From assembly GCF_007290395.2 (NCBI RefSeq), contig NZ_CP041656.2, forward strand, positions 2,976,001 to 3,040,000: 64,000 nt of DNA, given 5' to 3'. The notes beneath the pieces are model-generated. The model saw only the letters and a program-made list of their open reading frames with translations. It did not search any database and was not told the DNA's origin. This document shows positions 2,897 through 5,840 of the stretch, in pieces. This DNA is from Bradyrhizobium cosmicum (GTDB lineage Bacteria; Pseudomonadota; Alphaproteobacteria; Rhizobiales; Xanthobacteraceae). Made by a program: the position numbers and the translations under genes. Position 1 is the stretch's first letter. The number at the start of each line of letters is the position of its first letter.

Positions 2897-3277
2897 TCAG
2901 CCCCGTGTCGTACCGAACCCGTCGGCCGGCACGAAAAGCTTGACCGGGCGGATTTCGTAGACGGCCGACGGGTTGACCTCGCGCAGCTTGCGCGCCGCCG
3001 CAATCGCTTCTTCCTCTGTGTCGTAGTTCACGAGGTGGAAGCCCAGAAGCTGCTCCTTGGTCTCGGCGAATGGGCCATCCAGCACCATGCCGGCGCCGGG
3101 ACCGCGCAGGGTCTTGGCCTTCTGGGTGTCATCCAGGCGGGCGGCCGGGCCGAAATGTCCGCTTGCCCGCAGAGGTGCCTGAACCTCGATCACTTTCGAC
3201 ACGACGGCCGCGTCCTGCTCAGGCGTCCAGGCCAGGAGCTCGTCTTCCACGTGATAGGCCAGGATGGCGTAGAGCAT
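2897..3277 (-). CDS. YciI / DGPF-domain protein
   Basis: A 126-aa cytoplasmic protein with the YciI-related fold. The signature DGPFAETKE lies at about 67-75, followed by LLGF and the usual alpha/beta ending (YEIRPVK). These proteins are ferredoxin-like dimers with a conserved His/Asp pair, and in many bacteria sit beside ECF sigma factors; none is seen here. The chosen start is the ATG at 3277, preceded by GAGGTGA at good spacing; a GTG two codons upstream is less likely. It converges on the TMEM175-like gene with a 9 bp gap, leaving no room for a separate terminator. Confidence 0.85.
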   Translation of the reverse strand: MLYAILAYHVEDELLAWTPEQDAAVVSKVIEVQAPLRASGHFGPAARLDDTQKAKTLRGPGAGMVLDGPFAETKEQLLGFHLVNYDTEEEAIAAARKLREVNPSAVYEIRPVKLFVPADGFGTTRG

Positions 3278-3473
3278 CGTCACCTCGGTTGCTTCTGAGT
3301 TCGCTGTCCGAAGGACGTATCACCGCCGCCGAATCCGACAAGCCCGCCGACGAAAATATTGCGTCGCGACGCGCGTGACGAAACCGTCCTGAAACCCGAT
3401 TGCCGCCTTGCGGGGTGAACGCTGCCCAAAGCCAAGGCGACTGATGGCCACCAAGAACACTTCGGAGGCGGCC

Positions 3474-3886: not shown

Positions 3887-3922
3887 GTCGCCCGCCGATG
3901 AAGGCAAATCCCCAAATGAAAA

Positions 3923-3950
3923 GGCGCGGCGGGGAAAACCCCGTCGCGCC
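3923..3950 (-). terminator. Intrinsic terminator of the small minus-strand unit
   Basis: Twelve-base-pair GC stem with one G-U pair and a 4-nt loop (TTTT on the minus strand). On the minus strand it is followed by TTTTCATTT, a proper U-run. On the plus strand the trailing sequence is CGATTTCTT, so it may be weakly bidirectional. Confidence 0.7.
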
Positions 3951-4010
3951 CGATTTCTTGCTCGCTGGTCCAGGGCTGAGAGCGCCCCGATGCCAAGCCC
4001 TTCTCAGAAC

Positions 4011-4055
4011 TTAGCGGGCGATCCCAGCGAGGTGACAGCGCTTGGTAAGAGACAC
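4011..4055 (-). CDS. 14-aa mini-ORF with an extended Shine-Dalgarno
   Basis: Reads MSLTKRCHLAGIAR from a GTG at 4055 to a TAA at 4011. Upstream on the minus strand is GAAAGGAGGTGATCCA; GGAGG lies 7 nt before GTG, and the whole stretch is the reverse complement of the 16S rRNA 3' tail. Such a perfect site is rarely seen by chance and strongly suggests translation. The peptide is basic, with one Cys and one His and no membrane segment. Too short for ordinary gene callers. No family recognised. Confidence 0.55.
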   Translation of the reverse strand: MSLTKRCHLAGIAR

Positions 4056-4091
4056 TGGATCACCTCCTTTCGTTGGTTGCGGAAGATTCCA

Positions 4092-4120
4092 ATATAGGCT
4101 GGCAGGCCGCCGCTGTTAAG
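4092..4120 (-). promoter_or_regulatory. Rhizobial sigma-70 promoter for the small unit
   Basis: On the minus strand CTTAAC (4120-4115), exactly 17 nt, then CTATAT (4097-4092). This differs at one base from the rhizobial consensus CTTGAC-N17-CTATAT. The predicted start is near 4085, giving a 5' UTR of about 30 nt before the mini-ORF. Confidence 0.65.
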
Positions 4121-4252: not shown

Positions 4253-4326
4253 GCGGGTGTAGCTCAATGGTAGAGCAGCAGCCTTCCAAGCTGAATACGA
4301 GGGTTCGATTCCCTTCACCCGCTCCA
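4253..4326 (+). tRNA. tRNA-Gly (TCC)
   Basis: Complete cloverleaf: acceptor GCGGGTG pairs with CACCCGC, D arm GCTC/GAGC, anticodon loop CTTCCAA giving anticodon TCC, T arm GAGGG/CCCTT around TTCGATT, encoded CCA end. It decodes GGA/GGG. A possible promoter is TTGAGA at 4215-4220, with a poor -10. The gene lies at the left edge of a two-gene cassette; tRNA 3' ends are common integration sites, but I found no repeat of its 3' end downstream. Confidence 0.97.
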
Positions 4327-4557: not shown

Positions 4558-5073
4558 ATGACCGCAGCAGATGTGGCCTCTGCGGTGGACGAGTTTCTTC
4601 GGACACCGAAGACGGCGATAGGCGTGGAGGTCCCCATGGCCTGGGCGAACGGCTATTCTCCCTACGAGAAGGTTATTCATTTCCCGTTAGAGGTTAATGG
4701 TGAGCAGACCGGCGCGCAGTTGATGATCGTCGGGTTTCCGGACGCATCGATTCTGAAGTTTCGTGTGGGTCTGCTATTCCCCGGTGCAGTATGTCGCCTA
4801 GATCATACGGACGAAGTGCACCCAAACGCTCATCGAATATTAGAAGATAATGTGCCTATAATCGTAAGAGGCCCGCACTATCACTCTTGGCGCGTAAATA
4901 GACGTTTCTGTCGTGCCGGTAATTTGCCACCGAAGCTTCACAACGCCGAGGAGTTTGTCACTGGCGCCCGAAGCTTTGACGCAATTCTGCGTTGGTTTTG
5001 TGCTGACAACAACATCGTCGGACTGGGTCCAGATCACCGTATTGAACTACCGAGGCCAGAGAGACTGCTGTGA
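4558..5073 (+). CDS. Hypothetical His-rich-motif protein (DUF6978-like), cassette gene 1
   Basis: A 171-aa soluble protein. The conserved-looking core is RLDH (about 80-83), HPN (88-90) and GPHYHSW (105-111). This spacing resembles the uncharacterised DUF6978 family, though I am unsure of the assignment. The three His clusters could bind a metal. The start is supported by GGAGGGG just upstream. It overlaps the next gene by 1-4 nt (GTGATG), so the two are translationally coupled. Codons such as TTA, ATA and AGA, and the AT-richer composition, differ from neighbours, suggesting acquisition by transfer. Possibly a toxin-antitoxin or defence partner of the next gene (inference only). Confidence 0.75.
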   Translation: MTAADVASAVDEFLRTPKTAIGVEVPMAWANGYSPYEKVIHFPLEVNGEQTGAQLMIVGFPDASILKFRVGLLFPGAVCRLDHTDEVHPNAHRILEDNVPIIVRGPHYHSWRVNRRFCRAGNLPPKLHNAEEFVTGARSFDAILRWFCADNNIVGLGPDHRIELPRPERLL

Positions 5074-5840
5074 TGAATGACAATCTGGAACATATCGCAG
5101 ACTCGATCATGCACGGGATGCGGGACATCGCCACCATTGAGGTGGTTGGCGATGGCGTGCGCTTTACGACGCACTGTATGTACCCTTCCAACGGGTTAGT
5201 TCGTGTAACAGTGAAAGGCGGACGCGAAACGGTATATGCGTCGGACGAAGGCGAGGCAGTTGGTGAAGCTCTCAGTGCTGGAGCTGTGCTGAGAAATCCG
5301 GACAAGCTGCTTCGCGGCTTGCTTCGCCCGCAGGGCCTCGACATCAGCAACGGCATTATTCGATCTGATCGGATGCCGCTGGAGGCAGCTCCGTTGGCAA
5401 TTCTAGCCGTCTCGAACGCCGCGCGCGACATTGCGGTTTGGCTGTACGACCACCACCGTTTGAAAAGCAGCAGAGACTTCAGGCGGATGCTCTCAGAGTT
5501 TCTGAAGCATAAGTTTGATGATCAAGTATCGGCCGCCACCATCGTTGGAAAGAGCAACAAGCCACACAAGTTCGCCAACGTAATTTCATTCCCAAATGGT
5601 CGTAGGCTGATTGTCGATCCTGTCGCGAACGATCCATCGTCAATAAACGCTCGTGTAGTGGCGCACTTGGATGTGCGAAGCACGAATGATCCGACCATCG
5701 ATCAAAGGATCGTATACGACGACGCTGAAAAGTGGTCGCCTTCAGATCTCAACCTTCTTCAAGTCGGTGCGAATGTAATTCCATTCTCGAAGGCCACAGA
5801 CGTGATCCAACGTGCAGCAGAGAGAGTCCAAGTGGCTTAG
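5070..5840 (+). CDS. DUF1828/DUF1829-like protein, cassette gene 2
   Basis: A 256-aa soluble protein. The N-terminal part (about 20-75), with a beta-rich segment ending VYASDEGEAVGEAL, resembles DUF1828. The C-terminal part (about 155-245), from GKSNKPHKFANVISF to GANVIPF, resembles DUF1829. The two domains are known to occur together in proteins of unknown function, often in phage and island DNA. The start is GTG at 5070 or ATG at 5073; either overlaps the stop of gene 1. Same atypical codon use as gene 1. No catalytic motif is evident. I infer that the products act as a pair. Confidence 0.7.
   Translation: MMNDNLEHIADSIMHGMRDIATIEVVGDGVRFTTHCMYPSNGLVRVTVKGGRETVYASDEGEAVGEALSAGAVLRNPDKLLRGLLRPQGLDISNGIIRSDRMPLEAAPLAILAVSNAARDIAVWLYDHHRLKSSRDFRRMLSEFLKHKFDDQVSAATIVGKSNKPHKFANVISFPNGRRLIVDPVANDPSSINARVVAHLDVRSTNDPTIDQRIVYDDAEKWSPSDLNLLQVGANVIPFSKATDVIQRAAERVQVA

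Follow-up and report, generated by a model that had tools for sequence, protein, structure and literature searches.

What kind of gene results when a Shine-Dalgarno (SD) sequence matching the 16S rRNA tail stands in front of an ORF of only 14 codons, and is it the peptide, the RNA or the act of translation that is being maintained? The question is raised by a 205-bp unit on the minus strand of the window, the 64,000-nucleotide stretch of the Bradyrhizobium cosmicum genome analysed here, in which promoter-like hexamers, the SD, the mini-ORF and a terminator follow one another in order between positions 4120 and 3919.

A small transcription unit with an extended SD

The -35-like hexamer CTTAAC (4115..4120) is separated by a 17-nt spacer from the -10-like hexamer CTATAT (4092..4097), and from the hexamer spacing transcription would be expected to start near 4085; the predicted transcript, counted from the hexamers to the T-run, is 167 nt long. 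A 15-nt block complementary to the 16S tail, GAAAGGAGGTGATCC (4071-4057), belongs to an extended SD of 17 nt, GAAAGGAGGTGATCCAG (4055..4071), which includes the first base of the GTG start codon (4055-4053), the latter being located seven nt after GGAGG. The mini-ORF (4011..4055) encodes the 14-residue peptide MSLTKRCHLAGIAR and ends with TAA at 4013-4011. An intrinsic terminator (3919..3950), consisting of a stem at 3950-3923 with the loop TTTT and a T-run at 3922-3919, is found 60 nt past the stop codon. All of these parts had been named in a sequence-only reading of the same DNA, and all are present. When its terminator is removed, the transcript folds with a z of -2.97, a level matched by one shuffle in 200; the SD hairpin region of 72 nt, taken by itself, does modestly better than its shuffles (z -1.68, with 13 of 200 as good). 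The unit has one match within its own genome, and its conservation in relatives shows it to be more than a product of chance.

The 17 nt of the SD are identical to the antisense of the 3' end of the genome's own 16S (16S gene L032), so that the G of the start codon is paired as well; the complementarity claimed by the sequence-only reading was therefore confirmed and proved to be longer than proposed. A complement of 17 nt corresponds to the entire single-stranded tail of 16S rRNA. The duplex of the window SD with the 20-nt 16S tail amounts, in isolation, to -35.2 kcal/mol, against a median of -14.3 kcal/mol for 23 control genes. In the 7.27-Mb genome the SD 15-mer is present twice, in the window unit and in a 16S gene (reversed control, 0). 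A 16S gene or an antisense artefact was rejected as the source of the match, since no rRNA was detected in the window at Rfam gathering scores, two tRNAs being the sole matches, and since the sequence departs from 16S directly past the SD. The long SD by itself is not family-defining, because a 104-codon ordinary-looking ORF stands behind the same long SD in a MAG labelled Acidobacteriaceae (L140:3457). Two ORFs of 56 and 57 residues (L195, L208), secreted-looking with a hydrophobic N-terminus, also follow the same extended SD with no mini-ORF, and may be other genes or an elongated derivative.

The anatomy of the window unit matches the one reported for rreB of Bradyrhizobium, which the unit appears to be. 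rreB reportedly has a 14-aa ORF with a GTG start, a 17-nt SD and a transcript of about 165 nt, and is said to be conserved in Bradyrhizobiaceae. Its RNA is further said to bind the 30S subunit, to be translated weakly, with the extended SD impeding translation, and to be stabilised once the start codon is changed to a stop codon. The 14-codon ORF, the GTG start and the 17-nt SD are shared by the window unit, whose predicted 167 nt compare with the reported length of about 165 nt. On this comparison the gene itself is most likely already known, and the single locus probably not a discovery; as to the label "unannotated" given to it earlier, the gene appears to be rreB, published in 2017. The relatives described below belong to several orders, in contrast to the conservation in Bradyrhizobiaceae reported for rreB. 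What is new is the recovery of the unit by the CC2171 model together with its multi-order relatives, a frame that is kept without conservation of the peptide, and an anti-SD inside the ORF, which is not known to have been described for rreB. The paper of Hahn et al. (2017) on rreB (RNA Biol 14:1353-1363, doi 10.1080/15476286.2016.1256534) is cited in PMC7298713, and no literature link between CC2171/RF01867 and rreB was found in open-licence papers.

Relatives, the CC2171 family and the reading frame

A BLAST search with the unit gave matches in 197 of 296 genomes of the family, and these, together with the loci compared, lend support to the earlier proposal of a small transcription unit conserved in relatives. 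Weak 31-nt BLAST matches were considered as 16S ends, a notion that was dismissed because those examined hold mini-ORFs with other peptides. Forty loci taken by place and those from the BLAST search sort by peptide into two groups, the SD and the GTG being alike in both. Type I peptides are MSxxKRCHLAGIAR-like, and type II peptides MSHCLSPRSP..WILASAEV-like with about 24 aa, "type II" being a catch-all for any GTG-TC ORF under 35 codons outside types I and III (126 loci). Type III peptides (MSxEVLERGVGT..., 18 aa) are mostly from Rhodobacterales, the type comprising 18 Rhodobacterales-like loci and two from Devosia. A pattern scan of named genomes, with most of type I left out, returned at least 120 stretches; its pattern fixed GTGTCT and barred A at codon 5, and type I was therefore hardly sampled. 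Among the scan matches listed are Methylobacterium, Bosea, Microvirga, Ancylobacter, Devosia, Caulobacter, Brevundimonas, Phenylobacterium, Roseovarius, Belnapia and Acidisoma, and by this sequence evidence related units are placed in several alphaproteobacterial orders. The Cellvibrionales (L114) and Acidobacteriaceae (L140) labels among the at least 120 contigs were not accepted as family members, as these matches look like chance or another gene, and a Ramlibacter contig (L159) carrying a Caulobacterales-type peptide is probably mis-binned. A strict terminator finder located a terminator in 165 of 219 elements, additional ones being visible by eye and uncounted. The exact CTTAAC-N17-CTATAT arrangement was found in 20 of the 56 type I loci (29 of 56 in a looser form) and in none of 163 other loci.

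Type II was identified through the Rfam family RF01867 (CC2171, a Caulobacter sRNA), which scored above its cut-off on the element itself in six of 18 loci hand-picked among the at least 120 scan stretches. The window unit aligns with RF01867 over model positions 1-159 of 159 (3923..4079, minus strand), including the conserved 5' SD module, and is the sole match in the whole 7.27-Mb genome (E 1.9e-8). At 47.8 bits it does not reach the gathering cut-off of 75 bits, and the outer stem of the model, CAUUGUC/GACAAUG before the terminator, is not formed in the window alignment, its pairs being non-standard or missing; the unit is therefore called a relative of CC2171 and not a formal member. The two have in common the 5' module (CAAC..GAAAGGAGGTGATCCAGTGTCT), a similar length and a terminator, and differ in that score, in that stem and in the Rfam type, which is sRNA. 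Because the similarity lies largely in the 5' module, common descent of the 3' part is less certain. Matches to the model came from 78 of the 367 class genomes, 12 exceeding the cut-off, and from 55 of 299 in a draw from the phylum, ten exceeding it; all 55 belong to the same class, the share of the draw from outside the class being unspecified. Among 14 named control genomes, Caulobacter vibrioides alone gave a match. Genome G307 holds two units (L241, L279) with the different peptides MSHCHALNAAS... and MSHGSAKGS..., and the second RF01867 matches in G573, G566, G539, G334 and G455 include ones lacking the SD or the start, which are probably false.

The start codon was surveyed at 83 of the 85 RF01867 places (the window's own genome and G024 left out) with no start codon being demanded. 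An SD-like block with up to four mismatches was present at 73 of these loci, and an NTG stood in place at 70 of the 73 (37 ATG, 26 GTG and 7 TTG). In the remaining three, the NTG follows a one-base deletion (L283, L304) or is absent in place (L305). Ten of the 83 have no SD block at the expected spot; two of them (L223, L225) do have the SD and were missed through a centring filter, and the other eight are probably false, being weak matches (E 4.9e-5 or more). The impression of an invariant GTG was an effect of the first search pattern, as ATG and TTG occur. Among 243 distinct elements, ORFs of 10-40 codons having been the filter, the median ORF has 23 codons, and 235 elements have a TCN serine as their second codon. 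Frameshifts breaking the mini-ORF in close relatives would have counted against the earlier reading; the mini-ORF is intact, the 56 type I loci having ORFs of 13-17 codons with both quartiles at 14. Of the 126 type II loci examined, 95 carry a TGG landmark in its strict motif and 31 lack that motif; the landmark falls in phase in 92 of the 95, at distances of 33, 36, 39, 42 and 45 nt, the exceptions being L042, L100 and L131. A looser motif gave 104 of 116 in phase and twelve out of phase. With one locus per cluster, the counts are 42 of 44 for the strict motif (68 clusters, 24 lacking it) and 52 of 61 for the looser. Length quartiles of the type II ORF are 22-25 codons in frame, against 12-53 and 19-76 in the other two frames. 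Lengths are thus kept in threes, which is not what an untranslated RNA would be expected to show. By these sequence comparisons, the relatives are shown to keep the SD, a start codon, in most cases the serine at codon 2, and a short frame, and not the peptide.

The nature of the constraint was examined in non-overlapping pairs of loci (28 of type I, 36 of type II, nine of type III and two of other types), in which no concentration of substitutions at third positions was found. Changes at the first, second and third codon positions numbered 25, 20 and 14 in type I, 102, 116 and 112 in type II, 19, 30 and 19 in type III, and 3, 4 and 3 in the other types. Silent changes were no commoner than chance, or rarer, in the pairs of types I to III, the observed and random silent fractions being 0.167 and 0.277 in type I (8 silent and 40 replacement codon changes), 0.245 and 0.285 in type II, and 0.154 and 0.29 in type III. 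Selection on the peptide was rejected on account of this missing excess, and the suggestion of a signalling peptide gene, made earlier from the sequence, is disfavoured by the same comparison, which that earlier reading had itself proposed. All 36 distinct type I ORFs have the same triplets at codons 6 (CGC), 9 (CTC) and 13 (GCC), synonyms notwithstanding; six amino acids occur at each of codons 3 and 4, which fall in the loop, and the peptides differ between lineages when compared by eye. What is constrained is the frame and, within the pairing segments, the RNA sequence itself.

A look-alike of the 16S tail within the ORF

In the folds predicted for type I, the SD and the GTG are enclosed in one hairpin with codons 5-9. 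In the window, the predicted anti-SD arm GCGCTG TCACCTC (4029..4041) would pair with GAGGTGA at 4066-4060 and CAGTGT at 4057-4052, closing both the SD and the start codon. A second 16S-tail look-alike, GCTGGGATCGCC (4017..4028, codons 10-13), resembles GCTGGATCACC of 16S and is an alternative SD partner, and a second hairpin is predicted across the stop codon (3975..4028). The look-alike of type II, CTGGATC..CGCCTC, resides within the W-I-L-A-S codons. As a trp attenuator the type II ORF was discounted, its TGG being part of that look-alike and the other types having no TGG.

The pairing of the SD with the ORF was compared with its pairing with an equal stretch after the stop codon, both against dinucleotide shuffles. 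Over the 243 elements, the mean z was -1.71 in the ORF and +0.06 after the stop, with 145 and 16 elements, respectively, below -1.5; with one representative for each of 127 clusters, a reduction which lessens and does not remove the relatedness among rows, the means were -1.57 and -0.12 (Wilcoxon p 1.3e-15) and the counts 67 and 10. The best SD partner was centred in the ORF in 200 of 243 elements, against 119.7 expected, and outside it in the other 43; a strong ORF anti-SD is absent (z of -1.5 or above) from 98 of the 243. None of 23 ordinary genes with an A(A/G)GGAGG SD fell below -1.5 (mean z +0.4), this control being small and probably including L140. When the SD was paired with the remaining transcript and compared with 60 shuffles, a rank among the top 3 was reached by 41 of 56 type I, but only 49 of 125 type II, 10 of 20 type III and 5 of 17 other elements. 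The internal SD partner reaches on average -16 to -20 kcal/mol. In the five type I folds the unpaired probability of the start codon is always 0.0; in the type II and "other" folds, from five loci, the start codon is partly open (0.20-0.54), and in one of these folds (L200) the SD is half open. Since the SD and the anti-SD are near-invariant in type I, covariation is uninformative and the pairing cannot be proven by that route. Modelled in this way, the ORF is shown usually to contain a 16S-tail-like sequence with which the SD can pair, as can the start codon in type I. Competition for one SD between the 16S tail and an internal partner is encoded in the RNA.

Type III, mostly from Rhodobacterales, is the exception, in that its anti-SD usually comes after the ORF: in 17 of 20 loci the best anti-SD begins at least 70 nt after the start codon, past the 18-codon ORF. 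In six Rhodobacterales loci (L079, L082, L090, L101, L155, L177), a CCACCTCC-like anti-SD is found a short way ahead of the terminator, some 85-120 nt past the start codon, and in one type III fold the start codon is held by a local hairpin. By eye, a QP(S/P/L)-like stretch of similar sequence, in many cases EQP, was noticed in the second half of the mini-ORFs of L210, L217-L220, L253, L312, L316 and L317, where it is encoded by CAGCCTC-like DNA in otherwise unrelated mini-ORFs of several lineages; this DNA could be the anti-SD of those mini-ORFs, possibly a convergent one.

Related features have been described elsewhere. Pos19 of Rhodobacter sphaeroides is, according to PMC5036791, likewise a small RNA that is also coding, and differs in its 219 nt and its place in the RpoE regulon. 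SD pairing beyond the canonical is likewise the subject of the extended SD motifs of Staphylococcus aureus, where the SD helix is longer by an AU dinucleotide and start sites in general are concerned; a mini-mRNA with an anti-SD in its ORF is not among the features described in the excerpt available from that work (PMC13009471).

Translation as the proposed opening step, and the alternatives

The interpretation preferred here, to which a probability of about 55% is assigned, is that the unit is an rreB-type mini-mRNA by which 30S subunits are captured and which opens when its own ORF is translated. In the closed RNA, the SD would be held by the ORF; in the 30S-bound state, it would be held by the 16S tail through up to 17 bp, for which reason binding should be very tight and initiation slow. 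A ribosome in transit through the ORF would have to melt the anti-SD, so that translation would hold the site accessible to a further 30S; untranslated, the RNA would reclose. Ribosome transit as the opening step would account for a frame that has to cross the anti-SD and for amino acids that are free to vary. The RNA might in this manner report or buffer the free initiation-competent 30S subunits, probably via its own stability. The results reported for rreB, namely 30S binding, weak translation and stabilisation upon the start-to-stop change, would fit this mechanism; type III, with its anti-SD after the ORF, deviates from it, and the elements with no strong ORF anti-SD, the partly open start codons outside type I and the modest fold of the window's SD hairpin region also weigh against it.

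One competitor is a 30S sponge, in which the 17-bp SD helix sequesters 30S subunits, a titration also suggested in the sequence-only reading, and the ORF is incidental. A window SD far stronger than the control median speaks for it, as does the co-sedimentation of rreB with 30S that is said to have been observed; the start codon, frame and length are conserved, though, when a sponge needs none of them, and an anti-SD in the ORF would weaken it, and it is judged unlikely. The CC2171 label implies a trans-acting base-pairing sRNA whose ORF is secondary or absent. Rfam does class the relatives as sRNA, a CC2171-family sRNA has been predicted in Mesorhizobium huakuii according to PMC5596092, and the folding of the terminator-less transcript, matched by 1 of 200 shuffles, would suit such a role; the conserved frame argues the other way, as does the finding by eye that no segment outside the SD/start block is common to all types, which makes this explanation improbable.

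Only a very small chance is given to a functional signalling or regulatory peptide: the open frame, the very strong SD and the serine at codon 2 in nearly every element are what such a gene would have, set against silent changes that are not in excess, peptides that differ by lineage and type I loop codons that are freely replaced. Hardly any weight is placed, either, on a leader peptide or attenuator of a downstream gene, perhaps YCII in Bradyrhizobium-type genomes. A short ORF followed by a terminator has the right layout, and the nearest clear downstream same-strand gene in the window encodes a YCII domain (2897..3283, minus strand) about 635 nt beyond the T-run; a same-strand YCII gene is downstream in 15 type I loci, 30 of the 56 having at least 1100 nt of downstream sequence. 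The 163 other elements, many with little flank, gave no YCII match, the distance from SD to YCII in type I lies anywhere between about 230 and 1435 nt, and a strong terminator intervenes.

For the mini-mRNA opened by its own translation, a wider proposition can be put forward tentatively. A device present across much of the Alphaproteobacteria may let an internal copy of the 16S tail compete with the genuine tail for one perfect SD, with translation of an arbitrary short frame holding it open, and so read out or buffer the pool of free 30S subunits; rreB and CC2171 would be two forms of a single device, and CC2171 would be coding. Two curiosities that were filed separately, one called an mRNA (rreB) and the other an sRNA (CC2171), would be joined in this manner, and in both it is seemingly ribosome engagement and an open frame that are selected, not the peptide. 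Counting against a translated RNA, ribosome profiling by Schrader (2014) is reported to show the Caulobacter ncRNA regions as not translated, save two formerly predicted ncRNAs. If the switch is real, a class to which major model bacteria belong would possess a natural means of gauging its free 30S subunits. For catalogues of small proteins there is the caution that a frame can be open and conserved with no functional peptide behind it.

Last in order are the neighbours. The tRNA-Gly(TCC) gene (4253..4326, plus strand) is divergent from the unit in the window, and tRNA-Gly is so placed at 29 of 56 type I loci and at none of 163 others, the flanks being very unequal in length; with this distribution, it was rejected as a partner. 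One additional type I locus is near a tRNA-Gln. Further neighbours in the window are a UvrD-like helicase and a TMEM175-family protein. Beyond the tRNA-Gly gene, two adjacent plus-strand ORFs of 171 and 256 aa (4558-5840), with no Pfam match, are possibly an island at the tRNA 3' end.
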